From Nanobdellota archaeon (GTDB lineage: Archaea > Nanobdellota > Nanobdellia > Pacearchaeales > GW2011-AR1): a stretch of 40,471 nt of DNA. Below, one piece after another: positions 26,910 to 30,897 of the stretch (positions are counted from its first letter, which is position 1; every line of letters starts with the position of its first letter). The stretch is from positions 1-40,471 of the forward strand of contig JAHIVP010000027.1 of NCBI GenBank assembly GCA_018816335.1, written 5' to 3'. The notes under the pieces were generated by a model that saw nothing but the letters and a program-made list of their open reading frames with translations, had not been told where the DNA came from and did not search any database. The position numbers were made by a program, and so were the translations under genes.

Positions 26910-29484
26910 AAGTTTGTTTATTTTCATCATAGTAATTTTAAGTTTATTTATTGTAACATCTTTAGATGAAGATAAGATAACAAAAAAAGTAATTGATGAG
27001 ATAGAGGAAGAAGGAAGTGCTGAAGTTATTGTTAAATTAATTGATGAAGAGATTGTTGTGATGGAGGTTTCTGAAGTTGGGTTAGATTATTTGAAAGATA
27101 ATCCTTATGTAGAGAAAGTTGAATTTGATTTTCCTATTAGTGCTTTTTTAGAAGATACAGTTGGAATTTTGAATGCAACTAAAACTTATAGTTTAGATGT
27201 TGAGGGTTTGAATTTAACAGGAAGTTATCAAAGTGTTTGTGTTTTAGATTCTGGAGTAAATTATAGTCATGCTGATTTTGGAGGTTGTATTGGAGCTGGT
27301 TGTGGTGTTGTTGATGGATATGATTTTGTTAATGACGACGGAGATCCTATGGATGATTTTGGACATGGAACACATGTTGCTGGAATTGTTGGGGCTAATG
27401 GAAGTATAAATGGAATTGCTTATCAAGCTAATATAATTGCTATGAAAGTATTAGATGAAAGTGGGGATGGAGTTACTTCTAGTTTAATTTCAGCAATTAA
27501 TTGGTGTGTTGCAAATAAAAGTGTTTATAATATTTCTGTTATAACAATGAGTTTGGGAACTTCAACTTTATATGAAGAATTTTGTGATGCTTCTTTTAGT
27601 TCATTAGGAAGTTCAATAAATGCTGCATACGCTGCTAATATTTCTATAATTGCTGCAACAGGAAATGTTGGGAATTATACTGCTGTTGCTTCTCCTGCTT
27701 GTATTCAAAATGTTACTGCTGTTACTTCCTCAACAAAAACAGATGGGCTTTCTAGTTTTTCAAATAGAAATAAATTAGTTGATTTAATTGCTCCTGGAAC
27801 TTTCATAAATTCTACAAAAATGAGTGGGGGTTATTTAGTTGATTCAGGAACTTCTATGGCTGCTCCGCATGTTGCTGGTGCTTTTGCTTTAATATATCAA
27901 TTATTAAATTTAACTTCACAAATTCAGACACCTAAACAAGTTGAAGCAAAATTTAATCAGACAGGTGCTTCGATTTATGATTCTAGTTCTGATTTGAATT
28001 TTTCTAGAATAAATATTTATGGAGTTGTATTAGAGTATGATAATGTAAATCCTAATGTTACTTTAATTTCTCCTTCTAATAACAGTTTGAATGTTTCTGA
28101 AAACCAGACTTTTAATTGTAATGTTAGTGATTGGCAGCTGTCTAATGTAACTTTTTATTTGTATAATTCAAGTGATGATTTAATTAACCAGAGTGTTTTT
28201 AATGTTTCAGGAGAAAATAATCAGACAAATATTACAGTCAATAATTTAGAGACAGGGACATATTATTGGAATTGTTATGGGAGGGATTTGAAAAATAATT
28301 TTGGGTTTGCAAGTTCTAATTTTTCTTTGATTATTTCAAGTGTTATTGAAAGTTTGAGTTCTCCGACGAATAATAATTATACAAATATTGCCTCTAATAA
28401 TTTTAATTGTACATCAAGAAGTTTTGTTGGTTATTCAATGAGTAATGTTAGTTTTTATTTGTATAATTCAACTGAATTAATTTACAATGAAACAAAGAAT
28501 GTTAGTGGTTTTAATAATGTTTCAAGTTTTAATTATAGTTTTGGATATGAAGATGAATATAATTGGAATTGTTTAGGAGTGAATAATATTTCTGAATCAG
28601 ATTTTGATAGTAATTTTAGTGTTGTTTATGATTTGAGTGTTCCTGTTGTTAGTCTGAGTTCTCCTAATGATGGAAGTACATATACTTCAAGTTCCCAATC
28701 TATTAGTTTTGATTATAATGCAACTGATGATTTGAATATGACTTGTAAGTTGTTTATAGATGGAGTTGTTGCAAATTCAAGTAATGTTTTGAATGAAAGT
28801 GATTCAAGTTTTGTTAATTCTTATATTCCTGGGACTTATACATGGAGTGTTAATTGTTCAGATTTAGCAATGAATCAAGGAAATACTTCAAGTAGAAGTT
28901 TTATTGTTTATACTCCATCATCTAGTAGTTCTGGAGGTGGAAGTTCTAGTGGAGGATCTTCAGGGGGTGGGGGAGTTATAAGTTATGATACTTATCAGAT
29001 TAATGAAGATAGAAGTTTTTCAGGAAATTTGAAAGTTAGTGATAGAGTTAATTTTAATATTATTAATGAGGAACATATAATTAGAGTTGCTAAAGTTGGG
29101 GAAGATGAAATTGTTGTTGTTATATCAAGTAGTGTTCTAACTGTTAGTGTTAAGGTTGGAGAGAGTAAAAAAATTGATTTAGATTTAGATGGATATTTTG
29201 ATTTGATTATTAAGTTAAATAGTATTTTTGAAAAAAGAGCAAATGTGAAAATTAGTTTAGTTAAAATTCCTACAATAGAAGATGAATCTGATGAAAATGT
29301 TGAAGATACAAATTTGACAGGAGAGAGTGATATTACAGGAGCAATAGCAGGAGATAAGAGTGATAAAAGTTATATATACTTGTTACTTGAATTAGTTGTA
29401 ATATTAATGGTGGTATTTTTGGGTTATCAGTTGGTGGGAAGGTGGTTTGGTGGAAGAGGTAAGAAGAGTGAGAAAAAGAAATAA
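26887..29484 (+). CDS. Secreted subtilisin-like serine protease (S8), membrane-anchored
   Basis: An 865-residue protein. The signal sequence is FIFIIVILSLFIVTS. A propeptide of about 80 residues follows, then the S8 catalytic domain with the triad in VCVLDSGVNYSHADF (Asp), GHGTHVAGI (His) and SGTSMAAPHVAGAF (Ser), and the oxyanion Asn in ATGNVGN. After it come Asn/Ser-rich immunoglobulin-like repeats (LISPSNNS, LSSPTNNN, LSSPNDGS). Then come a Gly/Ser linker, a β-rich domain, the motif ITGAIAG, and a C-terminal transmembrane helix with a basic tail. The start at 26887 overlaps the previous gene; in-frame GTG 26896 or TTG 26914 are alternatives. It likely degrades or matures external proteins. 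Confidence 0.9.
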   Translation: MGNVFWNKSLFIFIIVILSLFIVTSLDEDKITKKVIDEIEEEGSAEVIVKLIDEEIVVMEVSEVGLDYLKDNPYVEKVEFDFPISAFLEDTVGILNATKTYSLDVEGLNLTGSYQSVCVLDSGVNYSHADFGGCIGAGCGVVDGYDFVNDDGDPMDDFGHGTHVAGIVGANGSINGIAYQANIIAMKVLDESGDGVTSSLISAINWCVANKSVYNISVITMSLGTSTLYEEFCDASFSSLGSSINAAYAANISIIAATGNVGNYTAVASPACIQNVTAVTSSTKTDGLSSFSNRNKLVDLIAPGTFINSTKMSGGYLVDSGTSMAAPHVAGAFALIYQLLNLTSQIQTPKQVEAKFNQTGASIYDSSSDLNFSRINIYGVVLEYDNVNPNVTLISPSNNSLNVSENQTFNCNVSDWQLSNVTFYLYNSSDDLINQSVFNVSGENNQTNITVNNLETGTYYWNCYGRDLKNNFGFASSNFSLIISSVIESLSSPTNNNYTNIASNNFNCTSRSFVGYSMSNVSFYLYNSTELIYNETKNVSGFNNVSSFNYSFGYEDEYNWNCLGVNNISESDFDSNFSVVYDLSVPVVSLSSPNDGSTYTSSSQSISFDYNATDDLNMTCKLFIDGVVANSSNVLNESDSSFVNSYIPGTYTWSVNCSDLAMNQGNTSSRSFIVYTPSSSSSGGGSSSGGSSGGGGVISYDTYQINEDRSFSGNLKVSDRVNFNIINEEHIIRVAKVGEDEIVVVISSSVLTVSVKVGESKKIDLDLDGYFDLIIKLNSIFEKRANVKISLVKIPTIEDESDENVEDTNLTGESDITGAIAGDKSDKSYIYLLLELVVILMVVFLGYQLVGRWFGGRGKKSEKKK

Positions 29485-29487
29485 CAA

Positions 29488-29562
29488 CGGAAATCTATGA
29501 TTTCCGAGCATTCAAACGCTCAGACTGTGCCTGCGCACAGAATGGGTTGAACGCATTTGAAT
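29488..29562 (+). promoter_or_regulatory. Multi-hairpin leader ending at the rnp2 start codon
   Basis: CGGAAAT/ATTTCCG (29488-29506) forms one hairpin. ATTCAAACG (29510-29518) pairs with CG(CA)TTTGAAT (29552-29562), enclosing CTGTGC/GCACAG (29525-29540). The 3' arm ends exactly one base before the ATG at 29563. The first hairpin may terminate the subtilase transcript. Confidence 0.5.
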
Positions 29563-29826
29563 ATGGAAAAAAAATTAAGGCCAAGTTTGAGAGAGAATAA
29601 ACGCTATCTTTTAGTGAAAGGAAGTAAGAAAGATATAGAGGAAGCTATTTTAGATTATATAGGGATATTAGGATTTGGACAGTGTGGAATTACATGGATA
29701 AAGAGTAATATTGTAGGTGTAAATAGAAATATGGTTGATAAAGTTAGGGCTTCGATGGCTGTTTCTAGTAATAATTTAGGGGTTGAGAATGTTTCTGGAA
29801 CTCTTAAGGGGTTGGGGAAGAAGTAG
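29563..29826 (+). CDS. rnp2: RNase P protein component 2 (Pop5/Rpp14 family)
   Basis: An 87-residue protein, short for the family at about 110-130. MEKKLRPSLRENKRYLLVKG is a typical Pop5 opening, with FGQCGITWIKSNIVGVNRNM as the conserved β-region and RASMAVSSNN afterwards. It pairs with Rpp30 in archaeal RNase P and helps remove 5' leaders of tRNA precursors. The ATG at 29563 is preferred over the TTG at 29557, which would add two residues and disrupt the leader hairpin arrangement. It precedes the psmA/exosome superoperon. Confidence 0.92.
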   Translation: MEKKLRPSLRENKRYLLVKGSKKDIEEAILDYIGILGFGQCGITWIKSNIVGVNRNMVDKVRASMAVSSNNLGVENVSGTLKGLGKK

Positions 29827-29845
29827 ATAAAAAGCTTTATATTGA

Positions 29846-29990
29846 AAGACACCAAGTCCTCGCTGACCAAAGGTCCGCGGGAACTTCAACTCGACAGAAA
29901 TTGAAAATTTCTGTCCTTCGAACTTTAAAAAGTTCAAAGTAAAGAGATTGAAGTTTTTCTTTCTAACTTCCTTTAAATTTGTTAAATATT
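29846..29990 (+). repeat. Group II C-rich structured element, expanded copy before psmA
   Basis: It begins AGACACC as in the short copies. A first hairpin spans 29857-29882. CTTCAACTC (29884-29892) pairs with GAG(A)TTGAAG (29944-29953) around two further perfect hairpins: GACAGAAAT/ATTTCTGTC (29893-29915) and GAACTT/AAGTTC (29920-29935), giving a three-way junction. The tail ACTTCC..AAATTTGTTAAA matches the copy at 22437. AAATATTTC/GAAATATTT (29984-30006) overlaps its end. Confidence 0.45.
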
Positions 29991-30001
29991 TCTAAACGAA
30001 A

Positions 30002-30011
30002 TATTTAAATA
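30002..30011 (+). promoter_or_regulatory. psmA TATA box
   Basis: TATTTAAATA follows a 9-bp inverted repeat. Transcription would begin near 30035, leaving a leader of about 140 nt that holds the two mini-ORFs. Confidence 0.45.
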
Positions 30012-30081
30012 CACTCAAAAATTCAAATATTTGTATTAAGCGAAAGAAAAAGAAAAACATATTATTCGCTTCTTTTAAAAA

Positions 30082-30117
30082 ATGGAAAAAAAGATAAAAA
30101 TTAGGAGAACTATCTAA
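30082..30117 (+). CDS. Leader mini-ORF 1 of psmA (11 aa)
   Basis: It encodes MEKKIKIRRTI. The stop overlaps the next mini-ORF's ATG as TAATG. No clear ribosome binding site precedes it, so it may not be translated. It lies downstream of the predicted transcription start. Confidence 0.3.
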   Translation: MEKKIKIRRTI

Positions 30118-30173
30118 TGGAAATTATGAAAATTGGAAATTTTCAAACCTCCATTTTAGGAGGTAGAGATTAA
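30117..30173 (+). CDS. Leader mini-ORF 2 of psmA (18 aa) with internal anti-SD
   Basis: It encodes MEIMKIGNFQTSILGGRD. AGGAG (30103-30107) lies 9 nt before the ATG, ideal for initiation. The stop TAA is one base before the psmA ATG. Codons for Thr-Ser (ACCTCC, 30147-30152) can pair perfectly with Gly-Gly codons (GGAGGT, 30159-30164), which are also the psmA ribosome binding site. Translating ribosomes would open this hairpin. Confidence 0.5.
   Translation: MEIMKIGNFQTSILGGRD
30147..30164 (+). promoter_or_regulatory. Six-bp hairpin sequestering the psmA Shine-Dalgarno
   Basis: ACCTCC, loop ATTTTA, GGAGGT: a perfect stem that hides the psmA ribosome binding site. The 5' arm equals the anti-Shine-Dalgarno of 16S rRNA. 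Confidence 0.65.
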
Positions 30174-30174
30174 A

Positions 30175-30897
30175 ATGGAAATGCCAATGGAAATGCAGAA
30201 TCAAGTAATGGGTTATGATAGAACTGCAACTATGTTTTCGCCTGATGGACATCTTTTACAAGTAGAATATGCTGAAAAAACAGTGAGATTAGGTAGTTCA
30301 AGTATAGGCTTTGTATGTAAAGATGGAGTTGTTATAGTTGCTGATAAAAGAATAAAAGATAGGTTGATTACTGCTGAATCTACCCATAAAGTTAATGAAG
30401 TTGATGATCACATGATTATGGCTACTGCTGGAATATTAAGTGATTCTAGAGTTTTAATTGAAAAAGCACAGTTAATTGCTCAGCAAAATAGAATTACATA
30501 TGATGGGCCTGTAGATGTTGAGACTGTGATAAAAGAAATTGCTAATATGAAACAAGCATTTACACAATATGGTGGAGCAAGACCTTTTGGAGCTTCTGTT
30601 ATGATAGCTGGATTAAGTGGAATTCATCCAAAGTTATTTGTTTCAGATATAACAGGAAATTATTTTTCTTACCATACAACAGCTATTGGAGAAAATGATG
30701 AGAAAATTAAAGAAATGTTAAGAAAGGATTATAAAGAAGATATGGTGATTGATGATGCAATTAAATTAGGATTAAAAATCTTTAAGAGTATTCAGGGTAA
30801 AAATTTTGATATGGACAGGTTTGATGTTGCTTATGTTAACCTGGAAGAAAAAAAGTTAAAAAGATTACTTGGGGATTTGTTGAAGAAATATAAATAA
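30175..30897 (+). CDS. psmA: Proteasome α subunit
   Basis: A 240-residue protein. The N-terminal signature GYDRTATMFSPDGHLLQVEY (near 13-32) is diagnostic of α subunits; it forms the gate and H0 helix. VGSSSIG-type strand, ADKRIKDRL and PFGASVMIAG follow. It lacks a catalytic Thr, as expected. Seven copies form each outer ring of the 20S proteasome, with β encoded at 12831. GGAGGT ends 10 nt before the ATG but lies in a hairpin. The stop overlaps the SBDS start (TAATG). Confidence 0.96.
   Translation: MEMPMEMQNQVMGYDRTATMFSPDGHLLQVEYAEKTVRLGSSSIGFVCKDGVVIVADKRIKDRLITAESTHKVNEVDDHMIMATAGILSDSRVLIEKAQLIAQQNRITYDGPVDVETVIKEIANMKQAFTQYGGARPFGASVMIAGLSGIHPKLFVSDITGNYFSYHTTAIGENDEKIKEMLRKDYKEDMVIDDAIKLGLKIFKSIQGKNFDMDRFDVAYVNLEEKKLKRLLGDLLKKYK

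Follow-up and report, generated by a model that had tools for sequence, protein, structure and literature searches.

A dispersed start-site repeat of Pacearchaeota that probably couples translation of its host genes to a mini-ORF

Archaeal ribosomes can reinitiate at a stop-to-start distance of about +1 nt, an ability that is gone by ~22 nt (PMC10666635), and one described mechanism of coupling is that translation of an upstream cistron opens a structure hiding the downstream start (PMC6728339). For the Escherichia coli iraD leader, the opening of a hidden initiation site by translation of a small ORF has been shown experimentally (PMC5574718). The leader of the proteasome gene psmA studied here likewise has an upstream stop next to the downstream start, the second of two mini-ORFs (ORF2) ending 1 nt before the psmA ATG, a geometry of the termination–reinitiation type; the original prediction on this DNA had also noted the one-base distance. 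The leader lies in a 40,471-nucleotide contig (the window) from a Nanobdellota archaeon, the sole member of its genus in our comparison set, for which Candidatus Pacearchaeota are the nearest relatives with a name. Comparison among related genomes makes it probable that ORF2 and its hairpins are a dispersed insertion cassette that would make the host gene a second cistron, coupled in translation to the mini-ORF. We know of no dispersed repeat that occupies start codons with an arm matched to each target.

The psmA leader in the window and its two competing helices

The psmA gene, encoding the proteasome alpha subunit (30175..30897; all window features are on the plus strand), is followed by SBDS and Rrp4, all three assigned with Pfam, and by further exosome genes. 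A TATA-like box, TATTTAAATA (30002..30011), with a BRE-like CGAAA immediately 5′ of it, has the same promoter layout as that found 5′ of the relatives' leaders, and from its position the operon transcript is expected to start near 30032-30036, ahead of both mini-ORFs. ORF1 (30082..30117; ATG at 30082, TAA at 30115-30117) has 11 codons (MEKKIKIRRTI) and overlaps ORF2 (30117..30173; ATG at 30117, TAA at 30171-30173; 18 codons, peptide MEIMKIGNFQTSILGGRD) through the sequence TAATG. An SD-like AGGAG (30103..30107) stands 5′ of ORF2, and one base separates the end of ORF2 from the psmA ATG at 30175. The two overlapping mini-ORFs, the AGGAG, and the one-base distance, all listed in the original prediction, are present in the sequence, as is the ACCTCC/GGAGGT complementarity described below. 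The interval that separates psmA from the RNase P protein gene also contains two strong hairpins, ACAGAAATTGAAAATTTCTGT and GAACTTTAAAAAGTTC, at 29887-29941.

The initial 8 nt of ORF2, ATGGAAAT (T1), duplicate the psmA start (T2). Folding and alignment identify a core hairpin, GAAAATT-GGA-AATTTTC (P1; 30128..30144), followed by an arm, TCCATTTTA (30150..30158), that is complementary to the psmA stop/start region, a pairing also indicated by covariation. This second helix, P2, has as its 3′ arm TAAAATGGA (30171..30179), comprising the ORF2 stop codon and the psmA start codon, and holds the psmA SD, GGAGGT (30159..30164), inside its loop.

An alternative helix (30147..30164), exclusive of P2, pairs ACCTCC (30147-30152) with the SD GGAGGT (30159-30164) across ATTTTA. 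Its complementarity is perfect, with a predicted energy of -9.9 kcal/mol and a folding z-score of -2.0 to -2.4, and ViennaRNA prefers it in the window to P2 (-7.2 kcal/mol; P2 probability ~0.01). An SD-pairing helix is likewise predicted over P2 in the psmA leader of locus L003, whereas P2 is the predicted fold in six of the ten psmA leaders examined; five of these have a nearly completely paired start codon, and in the sixth it is largely paired. In a 248-kb sample of the window's genome, 3 of the 38 starts that have an SD also have a perfect 6-nt anti-SD, so the anti-SD helix alone is just mildly unusual. The combination of an abutting mini-ORF with a strong start-codon stem was found at psmA only, among 148 sampled starts of that genome, and the complete psmA leader unit is beyond chance.

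Related psmA leaders: covariation of P2 and an older 5′-end hairpin

The comparison covered the psmA leaders of about 156 related genomes. The majority lack a mini-ORF, whereas a subset has one ending beside the psmA ATG. Within this subset, an arm of the form xTCCATTTTA pairs with the stop-plus-start sequence TAAAATGGAx, and the two sides change together (TTCCATTTTA with TAAAATGGAA; ATCCATGTTA with TAACATGGAT), including at a GTG start (ATCCACTTTA with TAAAGTGGAT) and with a TGA stop (CCCATATTCA with TGAATATGG). Arms pair better with their own starts than swapped arms do (permutation p=0.001, a value made optimistic by the common ancestry of the copies), six pairs are changed on both sides in alignment A5 (0 of 500 shuffles had as many), and RNAalifold recovers P2 unaided. 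The 5′ arm is read in three different frames in different species (TCC ATT TTA, ATC CAT TTT, and CCA TAT TCA), which argues that RNA pairing rather than peptide sequence has been kept. Similar ORF2 peptides do occur, but peptide conservation was rejected as the main constraint on these grounds. From the alignments, then, the conserved helix is one that closes the stop/start codon with the SD in its loop, not one that closes the SD. The compensatory changes expected in related leaders thus exist, but they fall in P2 and not in the SD/anti-SD helix.

On a psmA tree, presence of the unit is scattered, requiring nine changes, at least four of them forced by well-supported branches; it has therefore been gained (or lost) repeatedly. 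This distribution bears on the model of the original prediction, in which the ACCTCC/GGAGGT hairpin forms a psmA leader switch passed on by vertical descent; relatives lacking the mini-ORF had been named there as evidence that would count against it. That helix is present and predicted to be stable in the window, and similar anti-SD alternatives occur in L003 and in copies of the unit at uS3, so it is a real alternative fold. Yet pairing of this type over at least 5 nt is found in only 5 of 52 copies collected across genomes, which makes it a local and not the conserved feature, most relatives lack any mini-ORF, and copies stand on unrelated genes. As a conserved psmA switch the model is largely refuted, and we regard it as highly improbable; nor did we see any sign of attenuation, which had been suggested as well, or of signal-driven regulation.

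The leader carries a further element, a weak hairpin near its 5′ end (30038..30075; AAGCGA at 30038-30043 pairing with TCGCTT at 30066-30071, with a conserved ATTAT) that is nonetheless the top-ranked copy in the window's genome. Its counterpart in relatives, GAGAA ... ATTATNNN ... TTCTC near the inferred transcript start, is found in 63 of 157 leaders as against about 6 in shuffles; it has the ATTAT motif and a covarying stem, usually lies 6-17 nt 5′ of psmA or the first ATG, and mostly takes the place of an SD. A covariance model of this hairpin finds its strongest matches in psmA leaders in almost every genome, and about twenty off-target matches that we inspected were all due to chance. 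The hairpin is thus nearly specific to psmA leaders in Pacearchaeota. It is older than the cassette and was ruled out as a part of it. ORF1 begins ~10 nt 3′ of the hairpin, where psmA starts in relatives, and because this distance equals the hairpin–psmA distance elsewhere, ORF1 would mark the former psmA start site; it is possibly a decayed earlier cassette unit with an ATGGAA start copy (T0). In genome G006 (L205, minus strand, about 1151-1113), the 5′-end hairpin precedes an rrp4 gene with its own promoter, and the psmA leader there has no hairpin. The hairpin may follow the exosome genes, and autogenous control by Rrp4 or the exosome is a possible, if speculative, explanation.

Copies of the unit at other gene starts

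Sequence comparisons indicate that ORF2 and its hairpins make up a single copy of a dispersed start-site repeat of ~55-75 bp that occurs in Pacearchaeota and related archaea and has not been described before. We built a covariance model of P1 plus P2 (R3), trained on ten psmA units, that scores the start codon and P2 and so enriches for both. The window copy (30128..30186) scores 66 bits, which is no evidence in itself since it belongs to the training set; copies at genes other than psmA lie outside that set. At E≤0.1, R3 has further strong matches at genes other than psmA in 37 of the 181 genomes of the family, with several matches per genome, tandems among them, and across 371 scanned genomes of the phylum it has a few matches in other families of the class. 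The window's own genome has further copies on contigs C4 (44 bits, E 1.8e-5) and C18 (E 0.002) and likely extra ones at C4:8362, C37, and C13. A pattern confined to the core hairpin, in which the start codon is unscored, also matches mostly at start codons in genome G022. Rfam curated covariance models gave no match in window positions 29400-30400 up to E=1. Literature searches found no paper on Shine-Dalgarno sequences or on repeats or intergenic hairpins in Pacearchaeota, and searches combining MITEs, start codons, and archaea returned general reviews and unrelated papers only.

Across 52 copies the unit consists of T1 (a copy of the gene start), P1 (typically AAAATCAAAGATTTTCAAGC), the arm, usually an SD, and T2 (the gene start). 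The arm complements the start of its particular host gene, even where this is TTG or GTG, matching at 9 or more of 10 positions in 43 of the 52 copies, although R3 rewards pairing; in the copy at FttA, which has a TTG start and lies outside the training set, CTCCAATTTA pairs with TAAATTGGAG. Host genes comprise psmA, uS3, uL18, uL3, uL16, uS14, uS5, eS1, eL19, EF2, FttA, RtcB, prefoldin, Hjc, a response regulator, winged-helix proteins, and others; ribosomal proteins look over-represented, by impression rather than by formal test. The scan thereby ruled out a psmA-specific regulator, and control peculiar to the proteasome/exosome operon, as first proposed, does not fit a unit that also precedes genes for ribosomal proteins, EF2, FttA, RtcB, transcription factors, and others. 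Cassettes recur in different genera at psmA, uS3, uL18, and eL42 (the last named by eye), and two to three units stand in tandem before one gene at L281, L263, L265, L274, L284, L290, L296, L315, and L242. Tandem duplication of gene starts followed by drift, with no mobile or dispersed element, would account for the frequency of such tandems and for T1 being a copy of the gene start; the core hairpin, however, does not come from the target and recurs across genes and genomes that are unrelated, and this explanation has very little chance of being correct.

Empty and filled sites occur side by side. In genus g104, three uS3 genes have the unit and the remaining members do not: the empty site of G203 reads ...GGAGATGTGAG|ATGGAAGAAAG, and in G105 the same flanks enclose a clean 62-bp insert with ATGGAA at both ends. 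Empty and filled forms of psmA that share their promoter and 5′ UTR are found in genus g30. Within single genomes, near-identical units precede unrelated genes (RtcB and a C39 peptidase, 127 of 135 nt; uL18 and uL14, 97 of 98 nt). From these patterns we infer that the cassette transposes.

At L279 (1070-1132), a cassette with an 11-bp P2 (ATGATTTTAAT with ATTAAAATCAT) has ATC where the start is expected, so that the gene is either broken or begins at a non-standard start. Another dispersed palindrome, CTGYGCCTNCGCRCAG, lies at 29511-29565 in the window, with further sites at L191 (minus strand) 5781 and 2746, L201 9394, and L354 (minus strand) 704. Host sequence flanks it in inverted copies, an example being ATTCAAACGC ... 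GCATTTGAAT immediately 5′ of the RNase P protein gene. On C4 and C13 this palindrome lies directly 5′ of a start-site cassette.

Translation of the mini-ORF and comparison with known systems

Only 5 of 46 units are in frame with the host gene (P=4e-4 assuming independence, and likewise optimistic given common ancestry), and nearly all of these have an early stop. In 31 of the 41 out-of-frame units, the mini-ORF ends within -10 to +30 of the gene start, compared with 8.5±2.6 when unit interiors are shuffled, and half of the 52 copies have a stop at -1 (TAAxATG) or +4 (ATGA). An SD precedes T2 in 32 of 46 units as opposed to 44 of 214 genome starts (21%). Since the frame of an untranslated mini-ORF would be irrelevant, frame avoidance suggests that translation of the mini-ORF probably matters; some copies, however, have early stops and would be uncoupled.

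These features bear on a serious though unlikely alternative, in which the unit is a purely selfish MITE-like repeat that lands on start codons and persists through supplying its own SD and leaving a usable start, with P2 and the mini-ORF being by-products of target duplication without a regulatory role. Insertion polymorphism, near-copies within genomes, tandem units, and the scattered occurrence at psmA all accord with such a repeat, and the target itself often supplies the stop codon (TAAA|ATG or ATGA). What it leaves unexplained are the compensatory changes that preserve P2, GTG and TTG starts included, the strong in-frame avoidance together with the excess of open mini-ORFs abutting the start, and the recurrence at psmA, uS3, uL18, and eL42 across genera.

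We therefore favor the coupling cassette. It would arrive at a gene's start codon, so that the mini-ORF begins at the old start (T1), and behind T1 would come P1, the target-matched arm, usually an SD, and the second start copy T2, which now begins the gene. The arm would fold on T2 to form P2, hiding the start codon. Ribosomes entering at T1 via the old leader would translate the mini-ORF, melt P2, terminate at or beside T2, and then reinitiate on the host gene. Translation of psmA would in this way be coupled to that of ORF2, and that of SBDS and the exosome genes likewise through the operon. The idea that leader translation opens a structure is retained here for one over the psmA start; the conserved helix closes the stop/start rather than, as had been envisaged, the SD. 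Because T1 and T2 copy one another, the arm can pair with either, and the unit could conceivably be a mobile translational switch, a bistable start-site selector and possibly a mobile regulon on translation, RNA-handling, and proteasome genes, a proposal that we hold to be rather doubtful.

If the coupling reading is true, an uncultured archaeal lineage has a repeat that prefers start codons, rebuilds a start, and makes the host gene a second cistron. This would offer a new route for the spread of regulatory leaders, make reinitiation in DPANN archaea testable, and render gene starts in these genomes prone to misannotation.

The E. coli iraD ORF27 leader (PMC5574718) resembles the cassette, as we propose it to act, in its short upstream ORF, its stop overlapping the gene start, and its hidden initiation site freed by small-ORF translation. 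Unlike the cassette, it concerns a single gene, is controlled by CsrA, sequesters an SD instead of a start codon, is experimentally shown, and involves no dispersed insertion. Termination–reinitiation and initiation dependent on upstream translation in archaea and bacteria (PMC6728339, PMC10666635) share its stop/start distances and the proposed opening of the downstream start by translation, but involve ordinary gene pairs, whereas the cassette has as its upstream cistron a mini-ORF that is repeated and brought by insertion. Rickettsia palindromic elements (PMC10969869) are also small, dispersed palindromic repeats tolerated within many unrelated genes; they form in-frame fusions inside proteins, whereas the cassette avoids the frame (5 of 46, nearly all stopped early, so that residues are not added in this way), sits at the start codon, and has a target-matched arm. 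Like prokaryotic MITEs (PMC10969869), the cassette is short and multicopy and duplicates its target, here at polymorphic sites. In contrast to MITEs, it has no fixed terminal inverted repeats present in all copies: P1 alone is common, the outer arms track the target, and the inverted arm complements the start of the host gene.
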